A stretch of DNA of 64,000 nucleotides. It comes from Bacteroidales bacterium (GTDB lineage: Bacteria; Bacteroidota; Bacteroidia; Bacteroidales; F082). The stretch spans positions 1 through 64,000 of the forward strand of contig JAFYHS010000017.1 in NCBI GenBank assembly GCA_017539045.1, in the 5' to 3' direction. A program made the position numbers and the translations under genes. Under the pieces are notes generated by a model. It saw only the letters and a list, made by a program, of their open reading frames with translations. It had not been told where the DNA came from and did not search any database. Position 1 is the first letter of the stretch, and every line of letters starts with the position of its first letter. Positions 1,392 to 16,157 of this stretch are shown here, piece after piece.

Positions 1392-1400
1392 GAACTCGCT

Positions 1401-1589: not shown

Positions 1590-1648
1590 AATCTCATCCC
1601 TATTATGTGTCGGGCGCAACTTTTATTGGTTGTATGAATTGGCTAAAA

Positions 1649-2110
1649 CTATAGTTGCATGTTGTATTCTTCCTTCTTTGCGGGGCATTTGTCGTAGATT
1701 ATTTCATACAAAAACGCATCTACATTGATCTTTGAAACGCCACGCTCATTGGTGTCTGGTTTCCACACCGATTGGGTTGCAAAATCAATAATGATTCCAG
1801 GGATACCTCCAACGATAAGGATATTCCCAAGCAAAGGCATCACCCTAAAACTCTTAGTATAGAAACGGGTGGTTTGTTCTTCACACCCCTCTTCTTTCAA
1901 CGTGATGGCCAGATTATCGGCTTGGCTTCGTTTCCATTGGAATGTAGCGGTGCCAACGCCTTTGGTTTCTCCATTTACAGAGATGGTAGCGTTAGGATGG
2001 TCCACCGCCACAACATGAGCAGTATAACTTGAGCCGCCAATGAGTGTGGCGCACGAATTCATTGCGCAAATGATTGCCAAAGAAACAATTAGTACTACTA
2101 GCTTTTTCAT
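1649..2110 (-). CDS. Putative lipoprotein
   Basis: A 153-aa protein with a signal peptide (MKKLVVLIVSLAIICAMNSC) whose Cys20 is the lipobox cysteine, so it is predicted to be lipid-anchored. Residues 30-80 read like a PEGA-type beta domain (HPNATISVNGETKGVGTATF), and a hydrophobic glycine-rich stretch (about 90-110, LLGNILIVGGIPGIIIDFAT) follows, as in CATLIGG-type lipoproteins. Substrate or partner unknown. Upstream, TAATATTG is a one-mismatch version of the -7 element. Confidence 0.75.
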   Translation of the reverse strand: MKKLVVLIVSLAIICAMNSCATLIGGSSYTAHVVAVDHPNATISVNGETKGVGTATFQWKRSQADNLAITLKEEGCEEQTTRFYTKSFRVMPLLGNILIVGGIPGIIIDFATQSVWKPDTNERGVSKINVDAFLYEIIYDKCPAKKEEYNMQL

Positions 2111-2232
2111 GATTGTAATCAGATATTGTTTTGCAATATTACATACTTTATTAAATATGGCAACACGTTACAAACAAAAAAAATCCCAAAAAGGCAATCA
2201 TCAACCCCATCGGCAACACACGCACCCCTTGC

Positions 2233-2265
2233 CGTCATTGCGGACTTGATCCGCAATCTCCTAAG
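2233..2265. repeat. Short palindromic repeat (GCGGACTTGATCCGC type)
   Basis: Same unit as at 415-455. It lies in the 446-nt non-coding stretch 2111-2556, which otherwise holds a promoter candidate and a possible structured leader for the 71-aa gene. Confidence 0.75.
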
Positions 2266-2419
2266 CGGCTAGGGGCTACATTCTAGTTGTCACTTCGTAT
2301 TTGAAGCCCACCGAATACATTTCATTGCATGTGCCATTATATGGATAAACAAAGCGGTGTGTTCGTGCCTTTTTTAGTTTGTTAGTATGAAAACTTCTAT
2401 CGTTTGTAAAACAAATCGT

Positions 2420-2427
2420 TATTTTTG
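2420..2427 (+). promoter_or_regulatory. -7 promoter element (TATTTTTG)
   Basis: A perfect TAnnTTTG element about 130 nt upstream of the 71-aa gene. The nearest TTTG (2403-2406) is only 13 nt away rather than the usual 19-21, so the -33 half is poor. Confidence 0.5.
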
Positions 2428-2438
2428 CAACGCTTTTG

Positions 2439-2539
2439 CAGGAGCAGTTGCGTCAGCCGTTATGGACATAGAATGCAGGAGTCGCTGACTCATGTGCGAG
2501 CAGCAAAACAATCCATTGCACGTTGAAGGCACGCTCCTG
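2439..2539 (+). other. Possible structured 5' leader
   Basis: The predicted transcript from the promoter at 2420 has a leader of over 100 nt. CAGGAGC at 2439-2445 can pair with GCTCCTG at 2533-2539, and TGCAGGAG is repeated at 2437 and 2474. This could be a regulatory leader or a small RNA; no known riboswitch signature was recognised. Confidence 0.3.
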
Positions 2540-2556
2540 TTTATAAATGGAACACA

Positions 2557-2772
2557 ATGGCACTAACCCAACAGCAACAAGATCTGATTGACTGCCTGAA
2601 AATGGCAGGATTAGAGAAAGACGACATATCGGCAATTATGCTTCCTTTAGCCAATAGTCCAGAGCAAATGGATGAAATGCTGGATTATCTCATCGATGCC
2701 CTTCAAAGCAACAAAAAGATAACACCAGACGAGGCAATGGAGAAGATGTATCGGATAGCGGGGATGTTTTAG
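2557..2772 (+). CDS. 71-aa acidic hypothetical protein
   Basis: MALTQQQQDLIDCLKMAG and what follows predicts a soluble, mostly helical, acidic protein with two helix-turn segments (about residues 5-25 and 30-65). No signal peptide or membrane segment. It converges on the eight-gene defence operon, ending about 110 bp from the last gene of that operon, so it may be the island edge or a small partner. Not assigned to a family. Confidence 0.6.
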   Translation: MALTQQQQDLIDCLKMAGLEKDDISAIMLPLANSPEQMDEMLDYLIDALQSNKKITPDEAMEKMYRIAGMF

Positions 2773-2880
2773 CCCACTCCTATTTAACAAAAAAGCTCCA
2801 TGCCCAATACTGTCAAAACACAAGACAATGGCTTTGACTGGGTTCGGAACGCAATTATTTTGAGTAGAAATCGTTAGGCT

Positions 2881-3318
2881 TTATCTTTTTCTGTCAGCGT
2901 CCCAATTTCCATGTCCTCCTCCAGTCCATTTCCCGCTGACAAGCCAAATCTCATAATAATACATCCATTGGACAGCCCAATGAACAACTGTAGTGGCTAT
3001 TGACATTGAACTTCTCCATTCCATTGATTGTGGTATAAACAGACAAAGCTGTTGCATGCCATTACTGTAATTATAGACATGAGGGAGCGTGTCGGCTCCC
3101 TCTGCTAAAGGTAAAGGTTTTGGCGAGTCTATGAATGCTTTGGGAGTGCCATCTGCATTATAAGTGATTCTCAGACGATATGTATCAGAGAGAGGGGATG
3201 GCTTGAAGTCGCTATGCCAAACTAATTTTCCACGTCGAACCGTTCCTTTAGATAAAGGAAACTCACGAATCAACATGTGATATTGTTGAATAGGTGTGTA
3301 AGAAAAACTATTCGCCAT
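2881..3318 (-). CDS. E2-like protein of short type II CBASS
   Basis: A 145-aa stand-alone domain. Residues 78-92 read LPHVYNYSNGMQQLC, matching the E2 ubiquitin-conjugating layout in which an HPN-like motif (His80) is followed by the catalytic cysteine (Cys92). Tryptophan-rich helices (about 108-126) and SGKWTGGGH (128-136) follow. In type II-short CBASS a lone E2-like protein acts on the C terminus of the CD-NTase without the E1 domain (Cap2) or the JAB protease (Cap3) of long systems, and neither is seen here. Its start overlaps the end of the CD-NTase gene by 11 nt, so the two are translationally coupled. It is the last gene of the operon. The assignment rests on motif and context. Confidence 0.75.
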   Translation of the reverse strand: MANSFSYTPIQQYHMLIREFPLSKGTVRRGKLVWHSDFKPSPLSDTYRLRITYNADGTPKAFIDSPKPLPLAEGADTLPHVYNYSNGMQQLCLFIPQSMEWRSSMSIATTVVHWAVQWMYYYEIWLVSGKWTGGGHGNWDADRKR

Positions 3319-4534
3319 AGAATGTATTCAACGTGTTTATGCGTTTTCCACTTGAACCCACTTCACCTTTGTCGCTGAGTAGTCTTGTCCCTGATGCGAA
3401 CTGCGCTTTATGACGCTCGGCAAGATTTGTCACAACCTGATTTGAGATTTCTTTTCCAAAGGATTGGCTGATGTTGTTATGTATTTGTATCTGCGAAGTG
3501 CTATTGACTATATCCTCAACGGCTTTCTTGACGGCAATTAACCATTTATAAAAGTTTTCTTTGCGTTTGGGATACTCTGGCCATTTGTCTGCAAAATTCT
3601 CCTCCGGATTAACGGGATTTGCAATGACATCTTCGCCTTTTTCGTTCTTTTTTATGTACTTTCCCATGTCATTAACAACATTTTTCAAGCCGTCAAGCAG
3701 ATTACTCTCACCATTGTAAGCTCTTGAGGCAAGGGTGGTAATGATGATGGAAATAGGCTTGCCCTCGCTATCGTTGCAGAACATCACATCACGATGTCGT
3801 TTTAGAATTTGAACAACACGCTGAAGGATGGTTTTCTCTTTATTGAATGATGCTACTGGTATTACAGATTCTGCTACGAATTTTACCGATTCTTTGGTTT
3901 TGCAACGATTTGCGAACCATAATGCATACCCATCAGGATTACTTTTCATCCAATCGTCGGTTTGTGTTGCAGTAGCGTAGTTTTCAGTTTCCTTGTCGGT
4001 TATCCGGATAGATATCTTGTCGATGGCATTTTCGGAAAACGACTCAGATAACAAACGACGCATTCGCTCTGAATAGTTGCTGTCCGCGACAGAAGGAAGG
4101 ATGTCCATGTGGTATTTCTCTTTAGGATCATCGGATTTGTCGCGATACAACAACGTCCAGCAGCGACGCCCTTCTTTCTTTTCCAGCATTGGAGAATAGC
4201 GATCACTTTGTTTTAATCGATGTCCTACTTTGTCTTTCAGCGCTTTTTGTGTCCACATGGGGTTCTTCTCTATCAGACGGAACACCAAATCAACATCCAA
4301 ATCATCTTTAGGATTGATTGGTTGAATAATGGTTCCCAATCTGAGGGATCCTTGAGGTGTAACAACGGGCTTGTACAGGCCCAGTTCGGGGTCGTTCTCT
4401 AGAAATTCACCTACTGCTTTGTAGCTAGTAGTGAGGTTGTCGTATTGGGTTTTTGTAATGTCTAACGCTTCGCCCAATGCTTCAAGAATTTCGTTGAATT
4501 CCTTTTTCTGTTCTGTGGTTAAAGATATGTACAT
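3308..4534 (-). CDS. CD-NTase (cGAS/DncV-like nucleotidyltransferase) of CBASS
   Basis: A 408-aa protein with the nucleotidyltransferase signature: QGSLRLGT at 61-68 (Gly62-Ser63), the metal-binding pair Asp80 and Asp82 (LDVDLVF), and a third acidic residue at Asp144 in YHMDILPSV. The C-terminal half is the helical lobe typical of SMODS/DncV enzymes. On phage sensing, such enzymes make cyclic di- or trinucleotides that activate a SAVED-domain effector, here the adjacent Cap5. The C terminus ends FYGE; in short type II systems the E2 partner acts at this end. It lies 6 nt after the effector gene and overlaps the E2 gene by 11 nt. The nucleotide product cannot be read from sequence. Confidence 0.9.
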   Translation of the reverse strand: MYISLTTEQKKEFNEILEALGEALDITKTQYDNLTTSYKAVGEFLENDPELGLYKPVVTPQGSLRLGTIIQPINPKDDLDVDLVFRLIEKNPMWTQKALKDKVGHRLKQSDRYSPMLEKKEGRRCWTLLYRDKSDDPKEKYHMDILPSVADSNYSERMRRLLSESFSENAIDKISIRITDKETENYATATQTDDWMKSNPDGYALWFANRCKTKESVKFVAESVIPVASFNKEKTILQRVVQILKRHRDVMFCNDSEGKPISIIITTLASRAYNGESNLLDGLKNVVNDMGKYIKKNEKGEDVIANPVNPEENFADKWPEYPKRKENFYKWLIAVKKAVEDIVNSTSQIQIHNNISQSFGKEISNQVVTNLAERHKAQFASGTRLLSDKGEVGSSGKRINTLNTFYGE

Positions 4535-4540
4535 ATTCAG

Positions 4541-5665
4541 TTATTTTATTGTAATCGTTTCAAAGTCTTCTCCTTTTTCCAAGTTGTAATCATATAGTGT
4601 CCAAAACAAATCAGCTTTTTGCATCCGAATCCTTCCAAGTTCAACAGCGCAAGCCGACGGAGCTGCCATAAAGATTTTCAATGAGGTTGCATCAGGATGA
4701 TGTGTTTTTATGTCATCCATTGCTTGCCTTGCCACTTTGCCGAACTGCTTTAATTGTTCTTTGCTTCGAAGCATGTCATCCAAAGGATTCGCACAAGTGA
4801 TGCACCAAACACTTGCCTCATCACCATAGCGCTTATTGATGCGTTCCTTAATGGCATTGGCACTTAGCGCAATCACTAAAACTGGGTCTTTGGACTTGTC
4901 TTCAGGTTCAATGACACAAATATCATTCGACTCTTCCTCGTCGAACCATTTCCATGAATCATGTGATCGGTGCTTTTGATATATGTGGATTGGATATTTG
5001 TCGTTGAGCACTGTCCCTAACTTGACCAGTAAAGGCTGAGGGCCCAAGGCAAAAAGTGATACATCTGAGACTTCATGTTCCTTGAGTGGCTTAAGGATTC
5101 TTTCTTCACATATCGACTCAATCTGTTTTATTTCAGCCGCCCAATAGTCGGAGTCTCCATCTTGCATCACGGAGTTGTTCATCTGAATTTCAACTGGTGA
5201 TGTAGCAGAAGGATATTTCTCTGGGAAGATGGTGTTGTAAAGCGTGTCTTTATTAAAATGAGGTGTGTCCGAGCCAATCTTTGGTCCATAAATAACAACA
5301 AGGCTTTTTTTGTCGGGCTGTATGCCGGTCACTCTTTCAATCCTCTCCTCATGCTCTTTTTTCATGTTGCGAAGGATTTCAACGGTAAATTTATCTTTGC
5401 CCTCTTGATCTATTAGCCTATGACACTCAGGGCATAGTAAAATCAAATTTGAGGGATCTTGGGCAAGTTTTCTAGACAATGCTTTGTCGCCTCTCGGTCC
5501 ATTCTCCGAATCTCCAATAATGTGAGCATAATTTGAGATGTTGCATTCATCCATTGTTACGCCGTGTACATAGAGGGGCTTGTTGCAACCCGTGAACTCA
5601 CATCTGCCGTGAGCGGCGAACCATAAATCTTGTTTAACCTTAAGTTTAATAGAAGTTTTACTCAT
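4541..5665 (-). CDS. cap5: CBASS effector: HNH endonuclease-SAVED fusion (Cap5-like)
   Basis: A 374-aa protein. Residues 20-110 form an HNH nuclease: zinc-binding Cys22/Cys27 and Cys78/Cys81, catalytic-region YAHI (His48), and SNLILLCPECH (72-82). Residues about 150-374 are a SAVED domain, with the typical ALGPQPLLVKLG (about 207-218) and later YQKHR...W motifs. In characterised Cap5 proteins, binding of a cyclic oligonucleotide to SAVED drives assembly that unleashes HNH DNA degradation, killing the infected cell. All key residues are present, so it looks active. It sits 23 nt downstream of the 821-aa gene, with no convincing promoter of its own; TATAGTTT in the gap lacks the final G. Confidence 0.92.
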   Translation of the reverse strand: MSKTSIKLKVKQDLWFAAHGRCEFTGCNKPLYVHGVTMDECNISNYAHIIGDSENGPRGDKALSRKLAQDPSNLILLCPECHRLIDQEGKDKFTVEILRNMKKEHEERIERVTGIQPDKKSLVVIYGPKIGSDTPHFNKDTLYNTIFPEKYPSATSPVEIQMNNSVMQDGDSDYWAAEIKQIESICEERILKPLKEHEVSDVSLFALGPQPLLVKLGTVLNDKYPIHIYQKHRSHDSWKWFDEEESNDICVIEPEDKSKDPVLVIALSANAIKERINKRYGDEASVWCITCANPLDDMLRSKEQLKQFGKVARQAMDDIKTHHPDATSLKIFMAAPSACAVELGRIRMQKADLFWTLYDYNLEKGEDFETITIK

Positions 5666-5688
5666 GGTTTGTTTTTCTGGAAACTATA

Positions 5689-8154
5689 TCATACACTAAA
5701 ACCAAAAGATAACACATAGTTCAGTAAATCGGCCATATATTGACGGCGCTTATCTGTATAGCTATCGTAATTATCACGTGAACGACGAAGCCAGGCATAC
5801 AACTCGGGTGCATCACTGTTGGTGGGAAGTGTATGATGCCGATGAATATATTCCTTGACATCTTGACACTTTATCAAGAACTCGTTCTCAGTAGAAGACT
5901 GCGGATAGCCCAGTTGGTCATACTTCATTAGAGTATCATCGAACATCTTTTTTTGCTCCTCCGTCATCGACAAGACACCATTTGTCACATTGTAATACCA
6001 ACGCATTAGTGATGCTTCCTGCTCACTCCCATTGTAACTAGGGAAACGATGGTAGGTGTCAACAAAGTCTTTGAACATCTGAAATCGGTCTTCAAAGCGA
6101 TAGCGCTGAATGGATGCCGCCACCACATATTCTGCTGGATAGTTTTTAGATGTCAATCCAAAATAGCTACCTTCAAACTCTACGAATCGCTGTAAGTTTT
6201 CATCTTCCATCGTGGCTGCCAAACTTGCTTTAGTAGTGTTTGGATAGTGCTCGGATACACCGTCATAAAGTATATCTAAATGTAGTGGAACGTCAGAAGC
6301 ACTCAACAAATCAACGAGTAAATCTCTGATACTACCAAAATAGATTCCTTCCCAAATATCTAACGCATAGCATGAAGTTTTCCCGATTGACTTAATGTGT
6401 GGATGTTTAAATAAGGACGGCTTTATTTGTAGTGCGTCTGTATACTTGTGGTCGGGGTATCTTGTCTTGAATTCTTTGAAAATATCTTCAACGTGCATGG
6501 GTTCGCCTTGCTTTTCCAAAATGTCATACAGCTCTTCAGCTATGTCAATATGGTTCTGAGGCATATAAAGCTGCTCTTCGTCGGTAATACGTACCTTGTA
6601 TATGTCTGTAGCAATATATTTGATAAGTACTTTCATTTTAGGTCTCAACGGTTCTGGGACGGTGAAAAGAATAGAGTCAATGGGAACGTATGTATCAGTC
6701 GAAAACTTGGCGTTAATGATGCTATAAAACGTGTCGAGGCAACTGCTCAGGTCTAATCCTTTAATTTTTCGATTCACAAGGAAGGTGTGGCCTTCAACCT
6801 CCTCTATCTTAAAATCAGCTATTAATCGTACCAAAGAAGCAAATGCTTCAAAATCAACCGATAAGTGTTCTTCGTCTCTCAAGCTTGCATATTCTTCTAT
6901 GTTTTCATAAATAAATGGCAGTTCGAACAATTCGTTGTAACAAACCCAATTGTCATCATCCGCAATTCTTGATTTCTGTACCTCTATCGTGCCGTTTGCA
7001 ATTTGCCGGCATCTTTCACGTGTTAAATCCATCGCGTCGGCTATTTCAGATAATGTACGCTTCTTGCCGTCGAATAACCCGTGCAACAGGCAGTATATCT
7101 TATTTGATCTATTATCTGACAAACGGATATATTTGAGTAACAAAAAGAATAAAGGAGCATGCGCGTGTTTTTTCATAAAATCAAGCACAAACTGACGTTG
7201 ATTGCTATCTAGATAGGGATATTCCCGTTTCAGGAATTCAAATTGAATCTCGTCGTCAGAGAGTCTCGAAACCCTGTCAAATTCGTGTTTGAATTTTTGA
7301 TTAAACTGAAATATTTCAGTTAGAGTTTTCATCATATACTGACCAGGACAGATGTTGCGATAGGAAGACAAAGGTTCTTCGGCATACTTGATAAGATCGG
7401 AAAAATGCGGAAGATATTTAGAAACAAAATTCTTGCTTCTTACGCTTAACTTCGACTCCACTTGTTCCTGATATATTCTTTCTATGTATTCAAAGGCTGT
7501 TGGGGAAAGGAAGTATTTTGCTATCTGTTCATGGCTAAAGCTCTCCATTTTGACAGCTAGGTCCATTCGTTTTCGCTTGTATTCCACATAGATTGCGTTT
7601 CCAGCTTCTTGGGCATCCTCCATTTTTTCCATAGCAAGATCGATAAATTGCTTGTATGAATGGCGAATCTCCAGGTTTTCATCGAGTGAATAGTCCTCGA
7701 CCACTGCCAACATATTATCTAAATCACTCATCACAAAATTATGCATGTCTATCGGCTGAGGAAAAGCAGCTTGTAAATAAGCCTTCAGTTCTGTCTCGCC
7801 TGCAGTAACCGTGACATAAGCATCTGAGATAATTTCGACAATTCTTTCTCCATATACTCGCTGTAGTTCTTCTTTTGTTTTTGGATCATTATTTCCACTC
7901 TTGTGGGCTACACTATTCAAAATGGGTTCAATCTCCGCAAATGATTTTTGGCCAAAATTGCGATAGTTCATTAAATCTATGGGCGAATTAATACTTTCCC
8001 ATATTTGGCCTAATGTTTTTAGCCCTTTGTAATACAAGCAATTGAATGTACGAGCGGAGATAATCCCATTCTCGTGTAATTCTAGGAGGGTCGTATCTAA
8101 AGTGAATTCCATGTTGGTGATTCTGCCTGCTGTTTCTCTATTTTCTTTTTTCAT
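5689..8154 (-). CDS. Multidomain DNA-binding-like protein (alpha-CTD/sigma-4/HARE-type regions)
   Basis: An 821-aa protein (alternative start Met15). Residues about 20-70 resemble the helix-hairpin-helix domain of the RNA polymerase alpha C terminus (LHENGIISARTFNCLYYKGL, then NFGQKS). Around 370-395, LSEIADAMDLTRERCRQIAN is a sigma-70 region 4-like helix-turn-helix. Near 545-600, PMHVEDIFKEF...IKSIGKTS resembles a HARE-HTH domain. The C-terminal 150 residues carry helicase-associated-type repeats (RFPSYNGSE, and later LPTNSDAPELYAWLRRSRD). No nuclease or ATPase motif was seen. It could regulate the operon, recognise DNA or recruit RNA polymerase; the role is inference. It starts 4 nt after the radical SAM gene. 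Confidence 0.6.
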   Translation of the reverse strand: MKKENRETAGRITNMEFTLDTTLLELHENGIISARTFNCLYYKGLKTLGQIWESINSPIDLMNYRNFGQKSFAEIEPILNSVAHKSGNNDPKTKEELQRVYGERIVEIISDAYVTVTAGETELKAYLQAAFPQPIDMHNFVMSDLDNMLAVVEDYSLDENLEIRHSYKQFIDLAMEKMEDAQEAGNAIYVEYKRKRMDLAVKMESFSHEQIAKYFLSPTAFEYIERIYQEQVESKLSVRSKNFVSKYLPHFSDLIKYAEEPLSSYRNICPGQYMMKTLTEIFQFNQKFKHEFDRVSRLSDDEIQFEFLKREYPYLDSNQRQFVLDFMKKHAHAPLFFLLLKYIRLSDNRSNKIYCLLHGLFDGKKRTLSEIADAMDLTRERCRQIANGTIEVQKSRIADDDNWVCYNELFELPFIYENIEEYASLRDEEHLSVDFEAFASLVRLIADFKIEEVEGHTFLVNRKIKGLDLSSCLDTFYSIINAKFSTDTYVPIDSILFTVPEPLRPKMKVLIKYIATDIYKVRITDEEQLYMPQNHIDIAEELYDILEKQGEPMHVEDIFKEFKTRYPDHKYTDALQIKPSLFKHPHIKSIGKTSCYALDIWEGIYFGSIRDLLVDLLSASDVPLHLDILYDGVSEHYPNTTKASLAATMEDENLQRFVEFEGSYFGLTSKNYPAEYVVAASIQRYRFEDRFQMFKDFVDTYHRFPSYNGSEQEASLMRWYYNVTNGVLSMTEEQKKMFDDTLMKYDQLGYPQSSTENEFLIKCQDVKEYIHRHHTLPTNSDAPELYAWLRRSRDNYDSYTDKRRQYMADLLNYVLSFGFSV

Positions 8155-8158
8155 GGTT

Positions 8159-10144
8159 TTACTTTTTACGTCTTAATTCAATCGTCGGATGAGCATCATA
8201 CTCCTGTTTCAACTCGTAGAGCCTTGTGCCAGGTGTGATAATGTCTTTTCTATAATTCGTATAGAAGTTTAGGAGTGTCAAGGCGTCTTTGGATACAACG
8301 GAATCAATTTCTTCTTGCGAGAAAATGTTCCTGTGAATAATGTCAAGCACGTTGTGCTTTTCTTCTTCTTCCAACGTCCTCATGCAATGATTCCAACATC
8401 GTCTCCAATGGTCAGTTCCCATTGAACCTTTTTCATCCAGCCATTTAAAGAAGAAGCGATAGAGAATGAATGTTTCTGGCATTTCAAGCAGCTCAAAATA
8501 CTCTTCTTCCGTTGTGCCAAAAGCTTCAAGGAAGAAAGACATTCCCTTACCAATCTTTCCCTTAGTACTGTTCAAGATTGCTTGAACCGCGCGTATATAT
8601 TTACGGTTCCAATGTTTACCAATATAGTCTCGGTTGTGTGAGTAGTCTTCATCATCGCATTTCCCCTTTCGTATTGGATGATATTTCATCGGGAATGAAT
8701 AGATATTTACATTCAGTTCATCACACAATTCCACATTGATGCGCAAACGTTTATACAAATCAACAGGTTTATCCATGAAGTTGTAAAGCAGGTAGTTGGA
8801 GAATTCTTTCATACCAACCTTTACACTCATACGTATGGCCTTGTTGTAATAGTCATAGGTCTTAATATCATCGAAAGCAATACGAAGAGGTCGTATAGCA
8901 ATTCTTGCCAACTGAGAAACAATTTCTTCCGTGAACAAACGTGCATCTACCCCCTGATTAAAGTCCACGTACCTTGCTTTTGGTACTGGATGCTGATGTT
9001 TGTCGTAAATAGGTTGTATTTCTTCATACGCGGCCATCAGCGCTTCTTTCTTTGTAGTTGACAACTTATTGATATGATAACGGCTCATAATTTTATACAA
9101 CTCATAAGACTCGTCACCCTTCAGTAGTTTCAGTTTTTGATAGAACTCCTGGATCAGTCCCTGACTCTTACGGATGTAAGCACGATCATTTATTCCGTTT
9201 TTAAGATTGCGAATAGAAATAGCGAGCATATTTGGCTGAATAAACTTTGCACCTCTGCCAAATCCAGAAGCTACAATGTCATCAATAATATCCTTCAGAT
9301 TCTCTGATGCAAGAACATTATTATCCATCAGGAGCAAATCCTTCTGATCACCATATACCTCGCGCACTTTCTCCACTCGCTCGCGCATCGGGATGTATGG
9401 GATATATTTGTTCTCAAGAGTAGGTACTGCACAGAATGCACAATGACGTATGCAACCACGAGTCATATACCCATAGAAAGCGTTTGCCATCGGATATTTG
9501 TATTCTATCTCATCAAGAATCGAGTAGTCAAGAGGGAGATTATCAATAATCTGTGTGTCGCCCTTATCCAAAATACCAGGGGCACCCAGAATGCCAACCC
9601 AGGGTTTGATACCAGTAGCGGCTTCAAGCTCCTTAGGTTGAATGGAAGCCAATACGCCGCCAACCATAAGGTCTTTCTTCTTCTTAACCAGTAGTTTTGC
9701 AAAGTTGATGGTTTCTACAGTAATATCCCAGTAGAATGTAAACAATGTGGTTACGCCAACTCTGTCCCATTCTGGTTCTTTCTTCCAAATCCCCTTCCAA
9801 TAGAAGTCTTTCCATTCTGTTAGTTTTGTCAACAGAATCAAAACCATATCAGACCGCTCAATTGCAATTTTCTCAACGGCCTCTTTCTTTCTGGTCTTTA
9901 TGTATTCTATAAACTCATCGCGTTTCAACCACCAATCGATGTTTTTATCTGTCTTTTCAAAATCTTCTATGCATCGGTCGGCAATACGCTCTATAACAAA
10001 TGTTTTTAAGTCACCTTTATAGAAAGTAACATCCCATCCACCTAAGTTTTTATAATAGGTGGAAAGCTTCATTAGGCCAATAGGGGGGTACTTATTGGCA
10101 TAATTAGGTTCTATCAAGAGTACTTTCTTTCTCTTAGATTTCAT
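8159..10144 (-). CDS. Radical SAM enzyme with B12-binding-like N-terminal domain
   Basis: A 661-aa protein. The N terminus (VLLIEPNYANKYPPIGLMKL) matches the Rossmann-like cobalamin-binding domain found before many radical SAM domains. The iron-sulfur cluster motif is intact, Cys231-x3-Cys235-x2-Cys238 (TRGCIRHCAFC). The lack of the classical DxHxxG means cobalamin binding is not assured. The region after residue 350 is a long extension I cannot place. Radical SAM enzymes of this class typically methylate or rearrange unactivated carbons; the substrate here is unknown. Its start overlaps the GHKL gene by 11 nt, so it is firmly part of this operon, an unusual setting for such an enzyme. It is not viperin-like. 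Confidence 0.85.
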   Translation of the reverse strand: MKSKRKKVLLIEPNYANKYPPIGLMKLSTYYKNLGGWDVTFYKGDLKTFVIERIADRCIEDFEKTDKNIDWWLKRDEFIEYIKTRKKEAVEKIAIERSDMVLILLTKLTEWKDFYWKGIWKKEPEWDRVGVTTLFTFYWDITVETINFAKLLVKKKKDLMVGGVLASIQPKELEAATGIKPWVGILGAPGILDKGDTQIIDNLPLDYSILDEIEYKYPMANAFYGYMTRGCIRHCAFCAVPTLENKYIPYIPMRERVEKVREVYGDQKDLLLMDNNVLASENLKDIIDDIVASGFGRGAKFIQPNMLAISIRNLKNGINDRAYIRKSQGLIQEFYQKLKLLKGDESYELYKIMSRYHINKLSTTKKEALMAAYEEIQPIYDKHQHPVPKARYVDFNQGVDARLFTEEIVSQLARIAIRPLRIAFDDIKTYDYYNKAIRMSVKVGMKEFSNYLLYNFMDKPVDLYKRLRINVELCDELNVNIYSFPMKYHPIRKGKCDDEDYSHNRDYIGKHWNRKYIRAVQAILNSTKGKIGKGMSFFLEAFGTTEEEYFELLEMPETFILYRFFFKWLDEKGSMGTDHWRRCWNHCMRTLEEEEKHNVLDIIHRNIFSQEEIDSVVSKDALTLLNFYTNYRKDIITPGTRLYELKQEYDAHPTIELRRKK

Positions 10145-11957
10145 TATTAAATTCTTTCACTATTAGCCTTTCCATTTCGGCAATTAACTTCTGGTCGTGT
10201 TCATCATCAGGGCAGAATGAGTTCAAGACCTTAAACACACGACGTAGCAACCATATTTCGCTTGGATCAAGCACGTTGTTCAGCGGTGCAATAATATCCT
10301 GCTGGCCAAGTAGCGGCGTTGATGTGGGTGTTATAATGCGTTGACCTGGAATCAGGGCTTCGTTCTGATGGGTTTCTGGTTCCTGAACAGAAACTGGCTC
10401 TGAAGGATTAACCATTGTCGTTGAAGGTTCAACTGTGTTATCATTAGCTGTTGGAAATTCAGTATTGGTTTCCGTTGGAGTGCTTTGTGCAACTGATGTC
10501 GTATGCTCTACATTGTCCGTAGGAACGTCAATAGGTGCGGGTGAGGGATTCTCTTTTTTTACACTTATGGGCTCCTGCCGGGGCGGTGCTGTAGGTCTTA
10601 ACTTTTCCTCTCCTTTTGTCTTAGCTTCAATAAACTCTGGCTGGTATAGAAGAAGCATTCGTTTGATAGCCTCAAAACCGAATGAAGTTTTCATGAGCTT
10701 TTCAAACTTTCCTATACCTCGATTATTAATCAAATCCTTCGCATTATAGTCGATAGCACCGCCGTGATCATCTATGCGTTTAATACCGTCATAGATTTTA
10801 TCGATACTCTTTTTTGCCTCATTCGCTTTGGTATAAAGGGTCTTCAGATTCTCAAAATATGTTCTCAATCCATTTTCTAAAGCTCTGGTTTCTGGAGTGG
10901 GAACTAATCCATCGCGAGCGCCATTGGGGCGGATATGGGGATGAGTGACAAAAAACTCACCATAGAAATACGAGTTACTTCTGTCTTCCTTCCAGTAGTT
11001 GGTACCCGACAAAAGGTTGGCGTCACCAATCTGAATATTATGGGCTCTGAGTCGAATACCAGCAAGTTTGTCGTCCTTTGGTATTTGAATGGTATATTTC
11101 GTTAGAGCATACCATCCCCAGCCAAGAAGACCATATTTTCTGTCTTCTATTTTATAATACTCAAGGTTGTTGATTTTGTCTTTTGTACCCTTAATAGACA
11201 AGCCATATTGCTTTTGTATCCTTGTCTCGCCAACAAGAACTTGGACTTTCTCTAACCCCTCGTGAAGTTCTTTAAATTCTGGGTTATCTGCTGTGCTTTT
11301 ATAAATAAGAGTGTTCTTGAACTCCGATTTGTATTCAACCGGAGCCACCTCTCTCAAGTAGTTTGTGATCGCTTCAGCGTCTAATAAAGAGGGCGCTGCA
11401 TCATCTTTCACGCCATTCAGTTCCACTTCGAAATAATGGTCAGTTTCCTCTGCTGGGATAGGCTCTCTCTTGGTACACTTATTTATGACTTCAGTTGCCA
11501 GGTAGTCTTCATCGTCCTTTTCAACCATCTGCCATATTTTGTCTACGTCGAAGGTAATTTGAGTCCCAATTGCCTCGCCTCTTGCTGATGTTCGGAAGAT
11601 AAGTTCGTGACAATAGCCACCACCAACCAAACGGCCAATGCCATACATGCCCGCTTGATTTACACCGTCTTTGTTTGATGGAGAAATATCGAGCAGGGTG
11701 CGTACCGCATTTACAGATTCAATGCCGGCGCCATTATCTTTAATTTTAATAATCTTGTGCTTAGCATCAATATCGATATTAACCACACCGTCTTTGGCTT
11801 GGTTTAGCACACGAGTGTCAATTGCCTTGTTGATAGAGTCAAGAGAATTCTGAACATACTCACGATAAATGGTTTTTTCATCGGAGTAAAGCTGAAACAT
11901 CAGCATGCTTAAAATCTTTTTCCTGACCTCAGAGGAATAATTCAGATTATTTTCCAT
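10134..11957 (-). CDS. GHKL (Hsp90/MORC/MutL-type) ATPase
   Basis: A 607-aa protein with an N-terminal GHKL ATPase fold: N-box REYVQNSLDSI (32-42, Glu33 and Asn37), G1 box DNGAG (74-78) and G2 box GMYGIGRL (103-110). Residues about 140-420 form a middle domain (second sandwich-like lobe), followed by a low-complexity Pro/Thr/Glu/Ser linker (about 450-550) and a short helical tail. Such ATPases clamp by ATP-driven dimerisation and are used in DNA repair, chromatin and anti-phage systems. The domain layout resembles MORC- or Hsp90-like conflict proteins more than MutL. It is placed 14 nt after herA and overlaps the radical SAM gene. Confidence 0.88.
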   Translation of the reverse strand: MENNLNYSSEVRKKILSMLMFQLYSDEKTIYREYVQNSLDSINKAIDTRVLNQAKDGVVNIDIDAKHKIIKIKDNGAGIESVNAVRTLLDISPSNKDGVNQAGMYGIGRLVGGGYCHELIFRTSARGEAIGTQITFDVDKIWQMVEKDDEDYLATEVINKCTKREPIPAEETDHYFEVELNGVKDDAAPSLLDAEAITNYLREVAPVEYKSEFKNTLIYKSTADNPEFKELHEGLEKVQVLVGETRIQKQYGLSIKGTKDKINNLEYYKIEDRKYGLLGWGWYALTKYTIQIPKDDKLAGIRLRAHNIQIGDANLLSGTNYWKEDRSNSYFYGEFFVTHPHIRPNGARDGLVPTPETRALENGLRTYFENLKTLYTKANEAKKSIDKIYDGIKRIDDHGGAIDYNAKDLINNRGIGKFEKLMKTSFGFEAIKRMLLLYQPEFIEAKTKGEEKLRPTAPPRQEPISVKKENPSPAPIDVPTDNVEHTTSVAQSTPTETNTEFPTANDNTVEPSTTMVNPSEPVSVQEPETHQNEALIPGQRIITPTSTPLLGQQDIIAPLNNVLDPSEIWLLRRVFKVLNSFCPDDEHDQKLIAEMERLIVKEFNNEI

Positions 11958-11971
11958 AATTGTGATTTGTA

Positions 11972-13627
11972 TTAGCCATTGGGGAATTGTTTGTAAGCAG
12001 GTCTTGGGAATTTCACATTCACAAGAGAACGTAGAGCAGGATTAGAAATGATGTACTCGCCTGGTGATAGTCGGGTCATCATGTTCTGATAAACTTTCGG
12101 TATGTATCTATAGTCGGGTTTAGATACTTCAATAGCATTTGTTCTGCCGTAGGCTTGGGTTGCACAGTTGCCTTTCACTCTATCGTGAATGGCGCTGCGG
12201 AATTGCTCGACAGAGAATAGTATGATGCCAAGTGAGCGGCCACGCTCTGCGATATCAAGCAGCTGCTTCAGGATAGGAGAGTTCTTGGGGACATCGCTCG
12301 AAGCATACTTGTTCAACTCGTCCACGAAGAGGATGATTTTGTCAGGGATGTCGTTTCTGTCACCATCAAGCTTTAAGTCATAGATAGCGCGGGCTACTGT
12401 ACCAAAAACGAAACTTTGAGTATTGCCGTCAAGTCTTGCAATATCAATTACCATAACATTGTTTGCCCTAAGATGATTCTGAATCTCGTTTGTTAGGTCA
12501 ACTTCGTTAACGAGACTTTTGCCGAACACGTCGTTTGAAATAGCCTTGCGAATGCATCTTTTAAACTTTCTCCAGCTGACAACCTGAATTTCTTTCTTTT
12601 CATCTGTGCTACCCCCAGCTTTGGTATATTCATCAATAGTCTCTTTCAGGGTTTCCCACTTTTCAATGTTCTTGAATTTTCCTTCTTCATTCATAATAAA
12701 GTTGGCACATGCTTCCAACGTGTTTGTGGGGTCTTCTTCATTAGCAAGCAATAGGTCGAGTTTGTCTTTGTTGTCAGCAAATGTGAACTTATATGTAAAG
12801 GCCTTTTTGTCCCTTTTCTGCTGTTCGATGTCGCTCGGTGCTGCGTATGACTGAACCTTAGCCACATCGCTCTTGCTATAGGGGTAGTAATAACGGACAT
12901 TCTCAAAGGGAGTATCTGTTAAACCAAGATCTGAATATATCTGTTTGTCTTCGCTGCTAAGACCTTGATTCGGTTCGTCAATTGCCATCAGATCACGGCC
13001 TTTCACATTGAAGAATACGAAAGCGCATGTGTCGCCGTTGTCTGTGCGGAACTTACTCTGAATGGCTCTAAGCAAGAACATTGAATAAGATGTTTTAGCT
13101 GCCAAACCGGAGATACCAGAGATATTAATATGTGCTCCATCCGGGCCAATTAGGAAATGAGAATCTAAGATGACACGAATCTTAATCTTGTCTTCGCCCT
13201 TATACATTTCAAGATAGCCGCAGACAAGAGGATTTTTCACATCATCATCGGTCAAGCCTAATGCTTTCTTCACTTCTTCTGGTTCACAAAGTGATACCTG
13301 TTGGCCGTTCAGAACAGGCGTATATATACCGGCTGTATTGCCGCTTACACGCGCACGAACATAATTCATTCCTAAGCGATTCATATTTCCAATCTTTTCA
13401 TCTGTGCTGCCGAAGTCGCTGGAAATATATCCAGTAAAATGGCTGGGGGCATCAGTGATATGATTGATTTCTTCAATCACGCCGAATGTGATTGATCCCG
13501 ACTCGTGATTCACCTTAACCACATCGAACGGACTCAGAATCTGCTTCTTATCTGTCCAGAAATAAAACTCGTCAATCGTTGACGGACAATTCTCAGTAGC
13601 TGAAACTTTTCCTATTACTTTTGCCAT
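11972..13627 (-). CDS. HerA-like hexameric DNA-translocase ATPase
   Basis: A 551-aa protein. Residues 1-60 resemble the HAS-barrel that precedes HerA motors (GKVSAT...SPFDVVKV). The P-loop region is GISGLAAKTS (171-180), a variant in which Ala replaces the usual second Gly before Lys178. Walker B is IILFVDELNKY (about residue 430), and GRTNAIE near 500 may supply an arginine finger. HerA forms a hexameric ring that works with the NurA nuclease in DNA end resection, and HerA rings paired with other effectors (for example SIR2) act in anti-phage defence. Its ATG directly follows the stop codon of the nurA-like gene (TAAATG), as expected for partners made in fixed ratio. Confidence 0.85.
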   Translation of the reverse strand: MAKVIGKVSATENCPSTIDEFYFWTDKKQILSPFDVVKVNHESGSITFGVIEEINHITDAPSHFTGYISSDFGSTDEKIGNMNRLGMNYVRARVSGNTAGIYTPVLNGQQVSLCEPEEVKKALGLTDDDVKNPLVCGYLEMYKGEDKIKIRVILDSHFLIGPDGAHINISGISGLAAKTSYSMFLLRAIQSKFRTDNGDTCAFVFFNVKGRDLMAIDEPNQGLSSEDKQIYSDLGLTDTPFENVRYYYPYSKSDVAKVQSYAAPSDIEQQKRDKKAFTYKFTFADNKDKLDLLLANEEDPTNTLEACANFIMNEEGKFKNIEKWETLKETIDEYTKAGGSTDEKKEIQVVSWRKFKRCIRKAISNDVFGKSLVNEVDLTNEIQNHLRANNVMVIDIARLDGNTQSFVFGTVARAIYDLKLDGDRNDIPDKIILFVDELNKYASSDVPKNSPILKQLLDIAERGRSLGIILFSVEQFRSAIHDRVKGNCATQAYGRTNAIEVSKPDYRYIPKVYQNMMTRLSPGEYIISNPALRSLVNVKFPRPAYKQFPNG

Positions 13628-14800
13628 TTAGAATAAATTTAATATGATGTCAGAATTATAATACTTTGATTTGCAGAATGCCTCTGTTAGGTAAACTGGA
13701 TAAAGATGATTAGCCCAACGGATATCGTTGCCGTAGCACACGGGGTAGGCCTCTTTGATAAGATTCGCACTGATGGTGTTTATCAGGTCAGTATCAATCT
13801 GTTCATCTTCGTTAATGATAACCATCTCACACTTTACCACATCGGAGAAATTGGTTTCGCGAAAATTGCTATTACGAAGACGCAGATACCAAACGGCATA
13901 TTGCACGCCGTTTGCTTCTGAAGTATATCGGTAGGCCTTAGTTCGTTCAAAGGGTTTGAGGTTTGCTATTGTCTTCGAGAGGCGATGGCCTTCATAATCG
14001 GGGAGTAGTTCTGGGTCAAAACGCTTCGAAACACCAATGACGTATCGGTAGTTCTCGCGGAGCATAGTTTTATCTGGGCGGTTGATATTCGAGAAACTGG
14101 GATTGTACTCAAGTGAACCATCTTTTATAAGGTAGTGTTCATCGTCCAGACGATTGTGAGCACAAAGGTCAGCAACCAATCTTTGCTCCTCGTCGGTCAT
14201 TTCTGCTTGAATCTTAGCCGTTCCTCTGTTCTTATAGTTGTCCTTATCGGAATTGAACTTGTCTTTCTTATCTGTTTTGTAAAGCAGAATCTTGTCAATC
14301 TTCATGCCAACCTCACCAACATAGGGGAGCTTGCTCAACTCCTCATTTATTTCATCACAATAAAGACGACAGAAATCCTCGCCTTCATCATCAACATCGA
14401 AGTCGTCAGGCAGGGAAATTACTATTTTGTGGTAAGTTTGGTAGGAACGGAATGTGTCACGGTCTTCACGTTCACAACAGCCAACGACTATCTGACCAGC
14501 AAGCACGGGGAAAATCTTCTTGCCAATAGCCATATCGTCAACTTTGTAAACATGGCGCGAACCATCAAGGAAAAAGCAGAATATAGGGCGTGAATAGTCA
14601 ATGAGCATGCGGTCTATAACTACCGTAGGCACAAGGGATAAGTCTGATTCTGCGATACGACTCTTGTTACGGGTTGAAGCAGGCTTGTCGTCGTAATCAA
14701 GTACATCTGTATCGGTGATATTTAGGCTCACCTTGTTGGTTTTATAGCATAGGTAGTTGCCCTCACCCTTCTTGACAATGTAATCTAATATTTTGCCCAT
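13628..14800 (-). CDS. NurA-like nuclease
   Basis: A 390-aa protein. Residues 73-86 (IFCFFLDGSRHVYK) match motif I of NurA, with Asp79 of DGS as the metal ligand. RYVIGVSKRF near 256 resembles the middle NurA motif, and the C terminus (HLYPVYLTEAF) resembles the last NurA motif (YP..L..A). NurA nucleases are dimers or tetramers that load under a HerA hexamer and degrade DNA as it is pumped. Being immediately upstream of herA with no gap supports the call. Sequence similarity is remote, so it could be an inactive or altered-specificity relative. First gene of the operon, about 20 nt from the predicted transcription start. Confidence 0.7.
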   Translation of the reverse strand: MGKILDYIVKKGEGNYLCYKTNKVSLNITDTDVLDYDDKPASTRNKSRIAESDLSLVPTVVIDRMLIDYSRPIFCFFLDGSRHVYKVDDMAIGKKIFPVLAGQIVVGCCEREDRDTFRSYQTYHKIVISLPDDFDVDDEGEDFCRLYCDEINEELSKLPYVGEVGMKIDKILLYKTDKKDKFNSDKDNYKNRGTAKIQAEMTDEEQRLVADLCAHNRLDDEHYLIKDGSLEYNPSFSNINRPDKTMLRENYRYVIGVSKRFDPELLPDYEGHRLSKTIANLKPFERTKAYRYTSEANGVQYAVWYLRLRNSNFRETNFSDVVKCEMVIINEDEQIDTDLINTISANLIKEAYPVCYGNDIRWANHLYPVYLTEAFCKSKYYNSDIILNLF

Positions 14801-14829
14801 ATAATATAAGTTTGAATATTATTTCGCTG

Positions 14830-14861
14830 CAAAGATAAATATAAAAATCAAACTGACCAAA
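14830..14861 (-). promoter_or_regulatory. Promoter of the eight-gene defence operon
   Basis: On the minus strand, a -33 TTTG (14858-14861), a 20-nt spacer and a perfect -7 TATCTTTG (14830-14837), which is the canonical Bacteroidota primary sigma promoter. Transcription would start near 14823, giving a leader of about 20 nt before the nurA-like ATG. No equally good promoter was seen between the eight genes. Confidence 0.85.
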
Positions 14862-15142
14862 TTTTTTTCAAACTTTTTCAATATTTTTATGATTTTTTTT
14901 AAAAGAGATATGTCTCGCTCTACACCTATAACTTCATGTAAACAGCTGAAATTAAACAATTTTCATAATGGTTGAATCAATTTTTTACGCAACAATCATT
15001 TCCACACTTTTATTACGGACGAATGCTTCACCCAGTCACGTTAACTTGGCATAGAAATCCAATTGCAGAACTTCCGGACCAAGTGGGTGTATCTGGAGGG
15101 GAGGACGCCTTACCTAAAGACGCATTGCGGCAAAGCTACATA
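14862..15142. other. Intergenic edge of the island
   Basis: About 280 bp without a gene. The left 120 bp is extremely A+T-rich with runs of T and A; composition shifts toward the core average near 15030-15140. I see no tRNA, att duplication or insertion sequence end. Confidence 0.5.
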
Positions 15143-15781
15143 TTACTTCTCAAAAATCACCGACCCGGCCTGCGTCGGATGATCATAAATGAGGATCTCC
15201 TCTGATCCTTCCTGCTTCTTATACCTCATCACCTTCCACACAATCATGAGATCCCCGCCCGCCGAGAGCGTCATGACGATGCCGATCCAGAACAACAGCC
15301 CCGAACCCAACAGGATCCCCAAAAGGGCAGGGATGATCCCAAGGACGATGCATGGCATCAAAGCGCCCCAGATGTAATGGCGCTTCGTCAGGGGCGTGGC
15401 ACAGGTGCAGTAAGGTGTCAAGTACTCCTTCATGAACCCGAAATCGATGTCTTTGAAATGATGCTCTGCAAACACGCTCCAAGTCAGTCCGTGGATAAGC
15501 TCGTGGGCCACGATGAGCACTATGAATATGACGGCGAACAGCAGACTCTCCTTGGGCGTCGGCCTCAGCAGCGCCATGGGATTCTTCCATGCGAAAAGCA
15601 ACACGCCGATGGCGGTCACCGGGATGGCGAGCAATAGGACGAAGAGGTTGGCCTTGACGATGCTGATGTTCAGGTCGTTCCTCTTGTAGCCCTGCCCGAC
15701 GAGGGCTTCGCTGGTCTTCTCAAAGACGTCCAAGCGTCGTTGCTCTCGCGCGCTTAGTTTTCTGTTCTTCTCGTCATCCAT
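15143..15781 (-). CDS. DUF3267-type membrane metalloprotease-like protein
   Basis: A 212-aa protein with four or more membrane segments. The second carries HELIHG, an HExxH zinc-binding motif within the membrane, as in DUF3267 and site-2-protease-like families. The start at 15781 is chosen over an upstream in-frame ATG at 15829 because a clean promoter (-7 at 15804-15811) lies between them; the leader is then about 15 nt. Substrate unknown. Its C terminus faces the island. Confidence 0.8.
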   Translation of the reverse strand: MDDEKNRKLSAREQRRLDVFEKTSEALVGQGYKRNDLNISIVKANLFVLLLAIPVTAIGVLLFAWKNPMALLRPTPKESLLFAVIFIVLIVAHELIHGLTWSVFAEHHFKDIDFGFMKEYLTPYCTCATPLTKRHYIWGALMPCIVLGIIPALLGILLGSGLLFWIGIVMTLSAGGDLMIVWKVMRYKKQEGSEEILIYDHPTQAGSVIFEK

Positions 15782-15803
15782 GGTCGTGTCAGATAAAACG
15801 ACG

Positions 15804-15834
15804 CAAAGATACATAATAATCAAACGCATGCAAA
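15804..15834 (-). promoter_or_regulatory. Promoter of the DUF3267 gene
   Basis: Minus-strand TTTG (15831-15834), 19-nt spacer, TATCTTTG (15804-15811). This decides the start of the downstream gene. Confidence 0.8.
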
Positions 15835-15860
15835 TAATACCGTGGTCCTTTGGCGGTTCT

Positions 15861-15909
15861 GGAGATCGCGTTCCGCCTTCGCGGAATGAGAGGCCCGCGA
15901 TGACGGTAA
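15861..15909. repeat. Short palindromic repeat, expanded variant
   Basis: GGAGATCGCG...CCGCGATGACGG encloses a second small palindrome (TTCCGCCTTCGCGGAA), so one palindrome appears inserted in the loop of the other. Related to the unit at 415-455. Confidence 0.65.
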
Positions 15910-15951
15910 AGGGTGAGGCGTTGTCCGTTGGAGTGCTGTTTTCCGACCGTA

Positions 15952-16100
15952 TACCGTGTATGGGAACGCCTACCCTTCACTGGGTTGGGCGCGCGGGGTA
16001 CGGCCGACATGGCGGGGAAGCGTCCGCTTGGTGCGTCGGGTCCGATGATGTCGGCCTTGAATTTTCGCTTCCTTTTTTTCAAGAAAAAGGAAGGAAGAAA
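15952..16100. repeat. 200-bp GC-rich dispersed repeat, diverged inverted copy 3
   Basis: Read on the minus strand it begins with a C/T-rich tract, then TCAAGGCCGACATCATCGGA, then the GCGCTTCCCCGCC-like and CCCAACCC-like blocks, and ends near a CGTATACACGGT-like block, in the same order as 150-369. The inner palindrome is largely lost. It occupies the 320-bp space before the Fic gene. Confidence 0.65.
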
Positions 16101-16125
16101 TAACCCACAATCCACCAAAATTTCG

Positions 16126-16133: not shown

Positions 16134-16157
16134 AAGCCTGATTCACGACGACACGCC

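Follow-up and report, generated by a model that had tools for sequence, protein, structure and literature searches.

A gut bacterium carries, in the 64-kb stretch of DNA analyzed here (the window), a run of eight minus-strand ORFs at positions 2881 to 14800, every one with an ATG start, and we see about an even chance that they represent two systems stacked in one hotspot: an ordinary short type II CBASS and an unnamed mobile system directed against invaders, with a four-gene core and an optional fifth gene. The core encodes a NurA-like nuclease, a HerA-type DNA translocase, a GHKL ATPase, and a radical SAM (rSAM) enzyme. The sequences show conservation of the gene set, its order, and its motifs, a patchy spread with signs of transfer, a hotspot location, and an exchange of nuclease modules; a defense role of the core set is supported by context.

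Counted from the head of the run, the gaps between the genes are 0, 14, -11, 4, 23, 6, and -11 nt. A Bacteroidota-type promoter (TTTG-N20-TATCTTTG; 14830 to 14861, minus strand) is an exact match to TTTG-N19-21-TAnnTTTG, which we take to be the Bacteroidota promoter consensus. This pattern occurs four times in 64 kb, versus 0.43 expected, and no second minus-strand copy was found inside the island; in a generic sigma-70 scan, matches were no more numerous than in shuffled sequence (31 versus 32.3). The G+C content is 40.9% over 2881 to 14861, versus 53.5% (1 to 2000) and 55.0% (15077 to 34000) in the flanks; that of the whole window, which has other A+T-rich patches, is 50.2%. The initial annotation had described eight same-strand genes with these gaps, one clear promoter at their head, and an island A+T-richer than its flanks, all of which was reproduced.

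The island occupies a variable chromosomal slot (1392 to 15076), delimited by homology to relatives. Homology to three close relatives begins at 15077, the right junction; the left edge is less certain, with left-flank homology found only in genome G109, at 82% and partly in repeats, and stopping at 1391. Starting from that junction, these three relatives carry SspC/SspD/PbeA, AbiLi/AbiLii with a DdmD-like protein, or PDC-M33A with a type I REase (ten slot ORFs scanned across the three genomes). The slot is a defense hotspot.

Three genes at the distal end of the run are, as predicted from the genes, an ordinary short type II CBASS. They encode an HNH-SAVED effector of 374 amino acids (4541 to 5665, minus strand; PADLOC Effector, 9.9e-136; SAVED, 2.8e-39), a CD-NTase of 408 amino acids (3308 to 4534, minus strand; PADLOC Cyclase, 3.3e-124), and an E2-like protein of 145 amino acids (2881 to 3318, minus strand; PADLOC E2, 3.2e-45). 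PADLOC found no separate E1 or JAB gene among the eight ORFs. All three genes match short type II CBASS with HNH-SAVED strongly, and no difference was seen apart from their placement behind another system. That all eight genes form one integrated system, with CBASS as a built-in abortive back-up, was a reading of the initial annotation suggested by the common strand, the 23-nt junction between CBASS and the sigma-like gene (5666 to 5688), and the single recognizable promoter. It is already disfavored and now seems very improbable: the CBASS proteins of the window match in none of 63 other HerA loci at 1e-5 (a divergent CBASS would escape, and many of the loci are short), and among 173 genomes of the family, the window's own included, HerA was found in 8 and HNH-SAVED in 3, both together only in the window's genome. 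Moreover, no core genes were found near the CBASS relatives L101 and L102 (stretches of 8 to 10 kb), and elsewhere genes other than CBASS come after the sigma-like gene. The other reading offered, of separate systems of five and three genes under a shared promoter, is better than that of one system, but the near-constant core has four genes.

The first core gene (13628 to 14800, minus strand) encodes the NurA-like nuclease (390 amino acids), in which D79 and G80 are invariant and S81 and D227 are conserved in at least 90% of 52 sequences. It has no match to Pfam NurA (PF09376), and its sole PDB profile match, Deinococcus radiodurans NurA, is not significant (E, 0.33); its profile matches a Marinitoga virus gene annotated as a Rad50/Mre11-associated exonuclease at 7.3e-27. 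The putative NurA identity rests on context, together with the motif and this viral homologue. The second gene (11972 to 13627, minus strand) encodes the HerA-type DNA translocase (551 amino acids), which has a variant Walker A motif, GISGLAAKTS. Its profile matches D. radiodurans HerA (7f6d) at 2.9e-49, and K178, T179, S180, D436, and E437 are invariant in 51 sequences. The HerA half of the previously proposed HerA-NurA pair is thus confirmed, while the NurA half lacks a significant direct match.

With their HerA homology, nurA-herA adjacency, and NurA-like motifs, these genes resemble the NurA-HerA of D. radiodurans and archaea, which is studied as end resection and not as defense and does not share the variant Walker A motif of the window HerA. 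According to the part of PMC9960219 drawn on here, the bacterial relatives are studied as DNA end resection enzymes, and their role is controversial, deletion giving modest or even improved DNA damage resistance; that part does not refer to any rSAM or GHKL partner. We consider it unlikely that the set is a mobile DNA repair or recombination module, in which NurA-HerA would resect ends, the GHKL ATPase would act in a MutL- or Hsp90-like manner, and the rSAM enzyme would repair a lesion. Such a module would agree with the profile match to D. radiodurans HerA, part of an end-resection complex (PMC9960219, same part), with distant plasmid relatives of HerA that form HerA-SbcD-SbcC operons, adjoined by ImmA/IrrE in two of four, and with the Marinitoga virus, where NurA-HerA occurs along with a short rSAM and a LexA gene precedes NurA by about 3 kb. 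The patchy spread, the use of the slot by defense systems of relatives, and the association of the alphaproteobacterial plasmid rSAM-GHKL with PIN_8 and DGQHR proteins argue against it.

The GHKL ATPase (607 amino acids; 10134 to 11957, minus strand) has an Hsp90-like N domain. Its match to Pfam HATPase_c_3 (2.1e-8) is above the cutoff, in agreement with the initial call, its profile matches the HtpG N domain at 1.8e-15, and E33, N37, D74, and G78 are invariant in 45 sequences. Membership in Hsp90/HtpG, with its N, middle, and C domains, was rejected: the best stretches cover the N-terminal ATPase region only, and the HtpG model gives 34.6 of 371 bits.

The rSAM enzyme (661 amino acids; 8159 to 10144, minus strand) was recognized by its CxxxCxxC cluster motif, whose cysteines C231, C235, and C238 are invariant in 19 divergent sequences, and by a match to PHROG 9298 (radical SAM) at 1.2e-38; the Pfam Radical_SAM match (8.6e-5; 23.2 of 29.5 bits) is below the cutoff. 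Run as a profile against the PDB, the first rSAM alignment found nothing at 0.1, and a broader one gave weak matches (RimO, 4e-4). In MiaB and RimO methylthiotransferases, three cysteines near the N terminus belong to a second 4Fe-4S cluster. Assignment to this group was rejected, because only C231, C235, and C238 are invariant and TIGR00089 and TIGR01125 are far below the cutoff. The earlier label "B12-type" for this enzyme is not established: no B12-binding Pfam match was found at E≤1, B12/rSAM NCBIfam matches were only subthreshold, and 49 homologues lack a DxHxxG motif in their first 260 residues.

All four core genes were detected, in the same order and on the same strand, in 52 of the 63 other HerA loci, some genes being partial; the count leaves out L001 and the window, and L105 and L106 appear to duplicate L020 and L056. 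Ten of the 11 incomplete loci (L016, L035, L039, L049, and L058 to L064) are cut by a contig end; the uncut one, L064, is without GHKL, and none was found anywhere in its genome. The core set spans several phyla, as judged partly from organism titles, and many loci are metagenome-assembled genomes that may be misbinned. Pairwise protein distances of the core genes agree (Spearman coefficients of 0.65 to 0.94 over 33 loci; none of 500 permutations as high), as is also expected from common descent alone. The spread is patchy, with HerA in the 8 of 173 family genomes given above, own genome counted, and, own or center genome counted, rSAM in 5 of 345 genomes of the phylum and, within a different phylum, GHKL in 3 of 297 genomes; HerA is 98% identical in Phocaeicola barnesiae. 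No GHKL copy outside the core was found in ten core-bearing genomes searched, and hence there is no second GHKL-nuclease module in them.

The predicted co-occurrence of the five-gene block across genomes is borne out, with four genes near-constant and the fifth optional, present in 21 of the 63 related loci. This fifth gene (5689 to 8154, minus strand) encodes a protein of 821 amino acids, described from Pfam and PDB profile matches as combining alphaCTD and sigma region 4. The alphaCTD part of this earlier description is borne out by a Pfam match above the cutoff (1.8e-10), but the sigma region 4 match (1.8e-4) falls below it. There are also weak HARE and HA matches, and the start common to homologues in the alignment is Met15.

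The co-traveling set of four or five genes is apparently undescribed. As the initial annotation had supposed, no named system in PADLOC-DB 2023 covers the five-gene block: the rSAM, GHKL, NurA-like, and sigma-like proteins are unmatched at E≤1, save for one CARF match at E 0.019, the rSAM protein having none. Nor was a system of rSAM, GHKL, and HerA/NurA found in the open-license PMC literature, preprints excluded, among the titles and abstract openings listed. HerA-DUF4297 and HerA-Sir2, which we take to be HerA-nuclease defense pairs, likewise have a HerA translocase adjoining an effector enzyme in a defense context, but the window has a NurA-like nuclease and additional GHKL and rSAM genes, and its PADLOC HerA matches are weak. 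Of 51 HerA members, 50 match the mad8 profile of MADS (mad1 to mad8), the best at 7.7e-11; this system was rejected, since the block matched none of the other mad genes and the similarity is that of a HerA-type mad8 only. MZA contains a MutL-like GHKL and, in MzaA, a sigma-like protein, and thus resembles the block in having a sigma region 4 protein within a multigene defense operon; it was rejected with an MzaA score of 17.1 bits of the 800 needed at equivalog level.

The same rSAM and GHKL families occur on alphaproteobacterial plasmids in DGQHR-rSAM-GHKL operons, where DGQHR denotes a DndB/DpdB-like protein, along with PIN_8-GHKL pairs; pNL1 of Novosphingobium aromaticivorans carries both. 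A PIN_8 protein is present on 12 of 12 such plasmid records with rSAM, of which at most nine are independent (NC_002033/NC_009426, NZ_CP033363/NZ_CP051294, and NZ_CP072175/NZ_CP067074 are duplicates), the PIN_8 query having been taken from one of these plasmids. DGQHR-rSAM-GHKL was present in all seven plasmids examined of the 12 records; in six, the PIN_8-GHKL pair lies no more than 3 kb from it, and in the seventh the distance is about 88 kb. On two Bacteroides plasmids, a short piece of rSAM was detected but no match to PIN_8. The pairing of plasmid rSAM-GHKL with PIN_8-GHKL indicates that NurA-HerA is replaced there by another nuclease. Among the loci examined, DGQHR adjoins the NurA-HerA form in one lineage only (L051/L124), and PIN_8 was found beside it in no lineage. 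In Desulfogranum, the gene after rSAM matches DpdB at 2e-36. Phages encode short relatives of the rSAM as well, and in five of seven phages examined of 16 records a DNA methyltransferase is annotated in the surrounding stretch, which may equal the base rate.

These neighborhoods recall Dnd/Ssp and Dpd, in that rSAM has a DndB/DpdB-like DGQHR protein as its neighbor both in Desulfobacterota and on the alphaproteobacterial plasmids, the division into two modules is like that of restriction-modification, and Ssp/Pbe genes occupy the slot of one relative. In contrast to those systems, modification would fall to a radical SAM protein, and the window is without DGQHR. Both were rejected as identities of the block: no match was found in it to Dpd (DpdA transglycosylase and DpdB), DpdB-like proteins occurring only in relatives, or to Dnd/Ssp phosphorothioation (the PAPS-reductase-like enzyme DndC/SspD and partners).

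It is plausible that the rSAM enzyme modifies self or the invader, which the DGQHR/DpdB-like neighbors and the phage relatives near DNA methyltransferases fit. A more far-reaching proposal, possible and offered tentatively, is that rSAM-GHKL writes an undescribed DNA modification and that the mark is read by nuclease modules able to replace one another (NurA-HerA with GHKL, or PIN_8-GHKL). This would constitute a radical-SAM-based class of restriction-modification present in Bacteroidota, Desulfobacterota, alphaproteobacterial plasmids, and phages, in which the short phage rSAMs would be the matching viral modification enzymes. Radical SAM enzymes in prokaryotic defense include the viperins. 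By similar logic, the rSAM enzyme could make an antiviral small molecule or signal, with the nuclease module as a second arm; the viperin precedent and the hotspot location speak for this, but nucleic acid is indicated by the close coupling to a DNA translocase or nuclease module and, in some lineages, to proteins of the DndB/DpdB-like kind, and with the rSAM protein unmatched in PADLOC as well, we regard it as improbable. We attach similarly little weight to a selfish module of plasmid or phage competition, a weapon of mobile elements against other elements rather than a host defense. The core or its rSAM-GHKL half does occur on plasmids, several of them conjugative, and on contigs filed as viral, but here it lies in a chromosomal slot common to host defense genes of relatives. 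In mechanism, competition and the reading of two stacked systems overlap.

If the core is a counter-invader system stacked with CBASS, HerA would pump DNA into NurA for degradation from the ends, as reported for relatives. The GHKL ATPase may be an ATP-driven clamp or switch common to the modules, because its partner is either rSAM or a PIN_8 nuclease, or its gene lies between those of HerA and rSAM. Together with GHKL, and elsewhere with a DndB/DpdB-like protein, rSAM would modify a nucleic-acid target, most likely DNA. The modification could spare self or license the invader for destruction, making the whole restriction-modification-like, and the alphaCTD/sigma-like protein may bring the complex to promoters or polymerase.

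Should this be a defense system, it would combine a NurA-HerA resection machine, until now studied mainly as repair, with an Hsp90-like ATPase and an rSAM enzyme, and it would be a specific lead in the search for a novel nucleic-acid modification. Because the nucleases change while the rSAM-GHKL pair stays the same, the division of labor can be tested genetically in cultivable plasmid hosts. The gene set may also bear on the role of bacterial NurA-HerA, described as controversial in the part of PMC9960219 cited above.

The island (2881 to 14861) carries eight ORFs whose common minus strand and seven intergenic gaps, as described in the initial annotation, were borne out by ORF reading and translation. 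At 40.9% G+C (2881 to 14861) versus 53.5% (1 to 2000) and 55.0% (15077 to 34000), it is indeed A+T-richer than its flanks; further A+T-rich patches, possibly other acquired genes, lie at 50001 to 51000, 56001 to 58000, 59001 to 61000, and 63001 to 64000. The single clear promoter proposed at the island's head was also recovered: the minus-strand site at 14830 to 14861 matches exactly what we take to be the Bacteroidota promoter consensus, and no further minus-strand copy of this type occurs within the island. A generic sigma-70 scan gave 31 matches versus 32.3 ± 6.5 in shuffled sequences, which is no excess. The lone promoter would be compatible with a single transcript, which it does not prove.

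The last three genes encode a short type II CBASS by Pfam and PADLOC, namely, HNH-SAVED (4541 to 5665), CD-NTase (3308 to 4534), and E2 (2881 to 3318). For the first five genes, PADLOC returned no match beyond a weak HerA/mad8 match (translocase) and a CARF match (GHKL protein; E value, 0.019). Profiles built from 20 to 52 homologues per protein identified the translocase (11972 to 13627) as HerA (Deinococcus radiodurans HerA; E value, 2.9e-49), the GHKL ATPase (10134 to 11957) by its Hsp90-type N domain (E value, 1.8e-15), and the fifth, core-adjacent protein (5689 to 8154) as an αCTD/sigma-region-4 (sigma-like) protein. The radical SAM protein (rSAM; 8159 to 10144) retains CxxxCxxC across 19 divergent members. 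The assignment of the first gene (13628 to 14800) as NurA-like is weaker, its basis being an invariant D79-G80, its place ahead of HerA, and the Rad50/Mre11-associated exonuclease annotation of a homologue in a Marinitoga virus; Pfam NurA matched none of 52 family members, and the sole PDB match, D. radiodurans NurA, was nonsignificant (E value, 0.33).

A HerA-seeded genome scan yielded 63 loci, many from metagenome-assembled genomes and mostly from Bacteroidota, with others, by their titles, from Desulfobacterota, Acidobacteriota, Victivallales, Bacillota, and Gastranaerophilales. The initial annotation had envisaged five co-occurring proteins; four of them, NurA-like, HerA, GHKL, and rSAM, form a complete core of constant order and strand in 52 loci (some counted genes being partial), whereas the sigma-like gene is present in only 21, mostly directly behind rSAM. 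Of the 11 incomplete cores, 10 are truncated at the end of a contig; the remaining one, in L064, lacks GHKL. Pairwise protein distances were concordant among the four core genes (Spearman, 0.65 to 0.94; 33 loci; 0 of 500 permutations as high), which fits genes travelling together, although common descent predicts the same. With rSAM as the seed, 5 of 345 Bacteroidota genomes were positive, our own included; three of the other four have GHKL and HerA alongside, and one has a fragment. A GHKL-seeded search of the Desulfogranum phylum found 3 positives among 297 genomes, two with the core and a third with rSAM-GHKL-DGQHR on a contig that stops just past rSAM. Recent transfer is suggested by the 98% identity of the Phocaeicola barnesiae HerA to that of the window.

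Several loci carry additional genes. In L002, rSAM and the sigma-like gene are separated by a 70-amino-acid gene (15475 to 15687), which begins after the same 4-nucleotide gap that follows rSAM in the window; L003 and L029 have related small genes. The start of the L002 gene, MRKENRDTAG, resembles that of the window's sigma-like ORF, MKKENRETAG, and most of this small gene seems to have been deleted from the window. An AlbA_2/Schlafen-like gene occupies the same position in L029 (15534 to 16976, by Pfam) and L004 (12248 to 13918, by eye). Inserted ORFs split rSAM in L009 and the NurA-like gene in L053.

The genes behind the sigma-like gene vary between loci, and the window's CBASS trio matched none of the 63 other loci (tblastn, 1e-5), a search to which divergent CBASS would be invisible and in which many loci were short. 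Within the family, HerA occurs in 8 and HNH-SAVED in 3 of 173 genomes, both together only in our own, and two CBASS relatives (L101 and L102) have no core gene within the 8 to 10 kb available. The single eight-gene system first proposed is thus not upheld; judged by its distribution, the CBASS is a separate passenger and not part of the core system.

In three close relatives, homology to the right flank starts at 15077 and runs in blocks of 88 to 97% DNA identity. The left flank was found in G109 only (82%, partly repeats, ending at 1391), where a gene has the same sequence start as the window ORF at 1122 to 1391; the stretches of the other two relatives stop short of it. The repeats at 126 to 1391 recur in G109. 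Ten ORFs were scanned in total in the relatives' equivalents of the slot (1392 to 15076): SspC, SspD, PbeA, and an NsnA-like protein in G047 (L151); AbiLi/AbiLii, a DdmD-like helicase, and one ORF without a match in G109 (L150); and PDC-M33A and a type I restriction endonuclease in G061 (L149). The slot is a defence hotspot, and no other single observation speaks as strongly for a role in defence. An ORF adjoining the slot (16131 to 17333) has, by eye, a Fic-like HxFxxGNxR motif.

The core may instead serve repair, because NurA-HerA is classically a DNA repair pair and because four plasmids (L065 to L068) carry distant HerA relatives followed by SbcD-SbcC. In three of the four, this HerA is preceded by a gene similar in size to that of NurA, but the NurA profile has no match in L065 to L068; ImmA/IrrE peptidase genes lie nearby in L066 and L068.

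Core genes also occur on viral and putatively viral sequences. All four are present on three IMG/VR contigs (L081 to L083) and an unverified phage-collection record (MT836743; L069), and L084 has NurA-HerA only. In Marinitoga camini virus 1, NurA-HerA is accompanied by a 360-amino-acid rSAM of the same family in divergent orientation, without GHKL; this rSAM matches PHROG 9298 and 16 phage records. Among seven of these phages read, an annotated DNA methyltransferase was found in the fetched stretch of five (BI-TP1, BKO1-TP3, NatCom_21982, LoVEphage, and Dulem 39; not vir215 or vir335), a frequency that may be no more than the base rate and is not fully independent, BI-TP1 and LoVEphage resembling each other.

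A plasmid search with rSAM gave 14 matching records. Twelve are alphaproteobacterial (at most nine independent), and all 12 are among the 15 of 72,556 plasmid records that have a PIN_8 match. In all seven plasmids read, rSAM lies within a DGQHR-rSAM-GHKL operon; this GHKL matches the window-family profile (1.5e-97 to 2.6e-84 in six, the seventh also being found), and next to PIN_8 is another GHKL from this family (8e-88 to 2e-73 in five). The PIN_8-GHKL pair lies within 3 kb of the rSAM operon in six plasmids; in the Roseomonas plasmid, the two are separated by about 88 kb. The DGQHR proteins are matched by both the DndB model of Pfam and the DpdB model of PADLOC; in Desulfogranum, where the NurA-HerA-GHKL-rSAM core is complete, the gene after rSAM encodes such a protein. 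Six loci (L038, L041, L054, L057, L097, and L098) each possess two GHKL genes, of which one is close to HerA and the other closer to rSAM. Together with the plasmid arrangement, these loci suggest two halves, GHKL-rSAM and GHKL-nuclease. Against this division stand the lack of a GHKL copy outside the core in ten core-bearing genomes searched and the absence of PIN_8 from all NurA-HerA loci examined. In L038 (13214 to 15437) and L054, the two GHKL genes are separated by genes for an AAA_15 ATPase (by scan of the L038 protein, NsnB/HEC-03B/PDC-M55A-like) and for a second protein of some 280 amino acids. Two plasmids encode a long second DGQHR protein (L086, 12174 to 14483; L087, 5490 to 7850), that of L086 with a weak C-terminal Swt1-like HEPN match below the cutoff.

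We observed a conserved gene set, conserved motifs, patchy spread, a hotspot, and exchange of nucleases. HerA-NurA relatives are described as translocating along and resecting DNA (PMC9960219). GHKL could act as a clamp or switch and rSAM as a nucleic acid modifier, which would make the whole set restriction-modification-like. No named system of this makeup was found in PADLOC-DB 2023 or among the open-license PMC papers listed by full-text searches, and the core set may be described elsewhere. We assign the core as a variant of the HerA-nuclease systems that act against invaders; it would be categorically new only if an rSAM-made mark were demonstrated.
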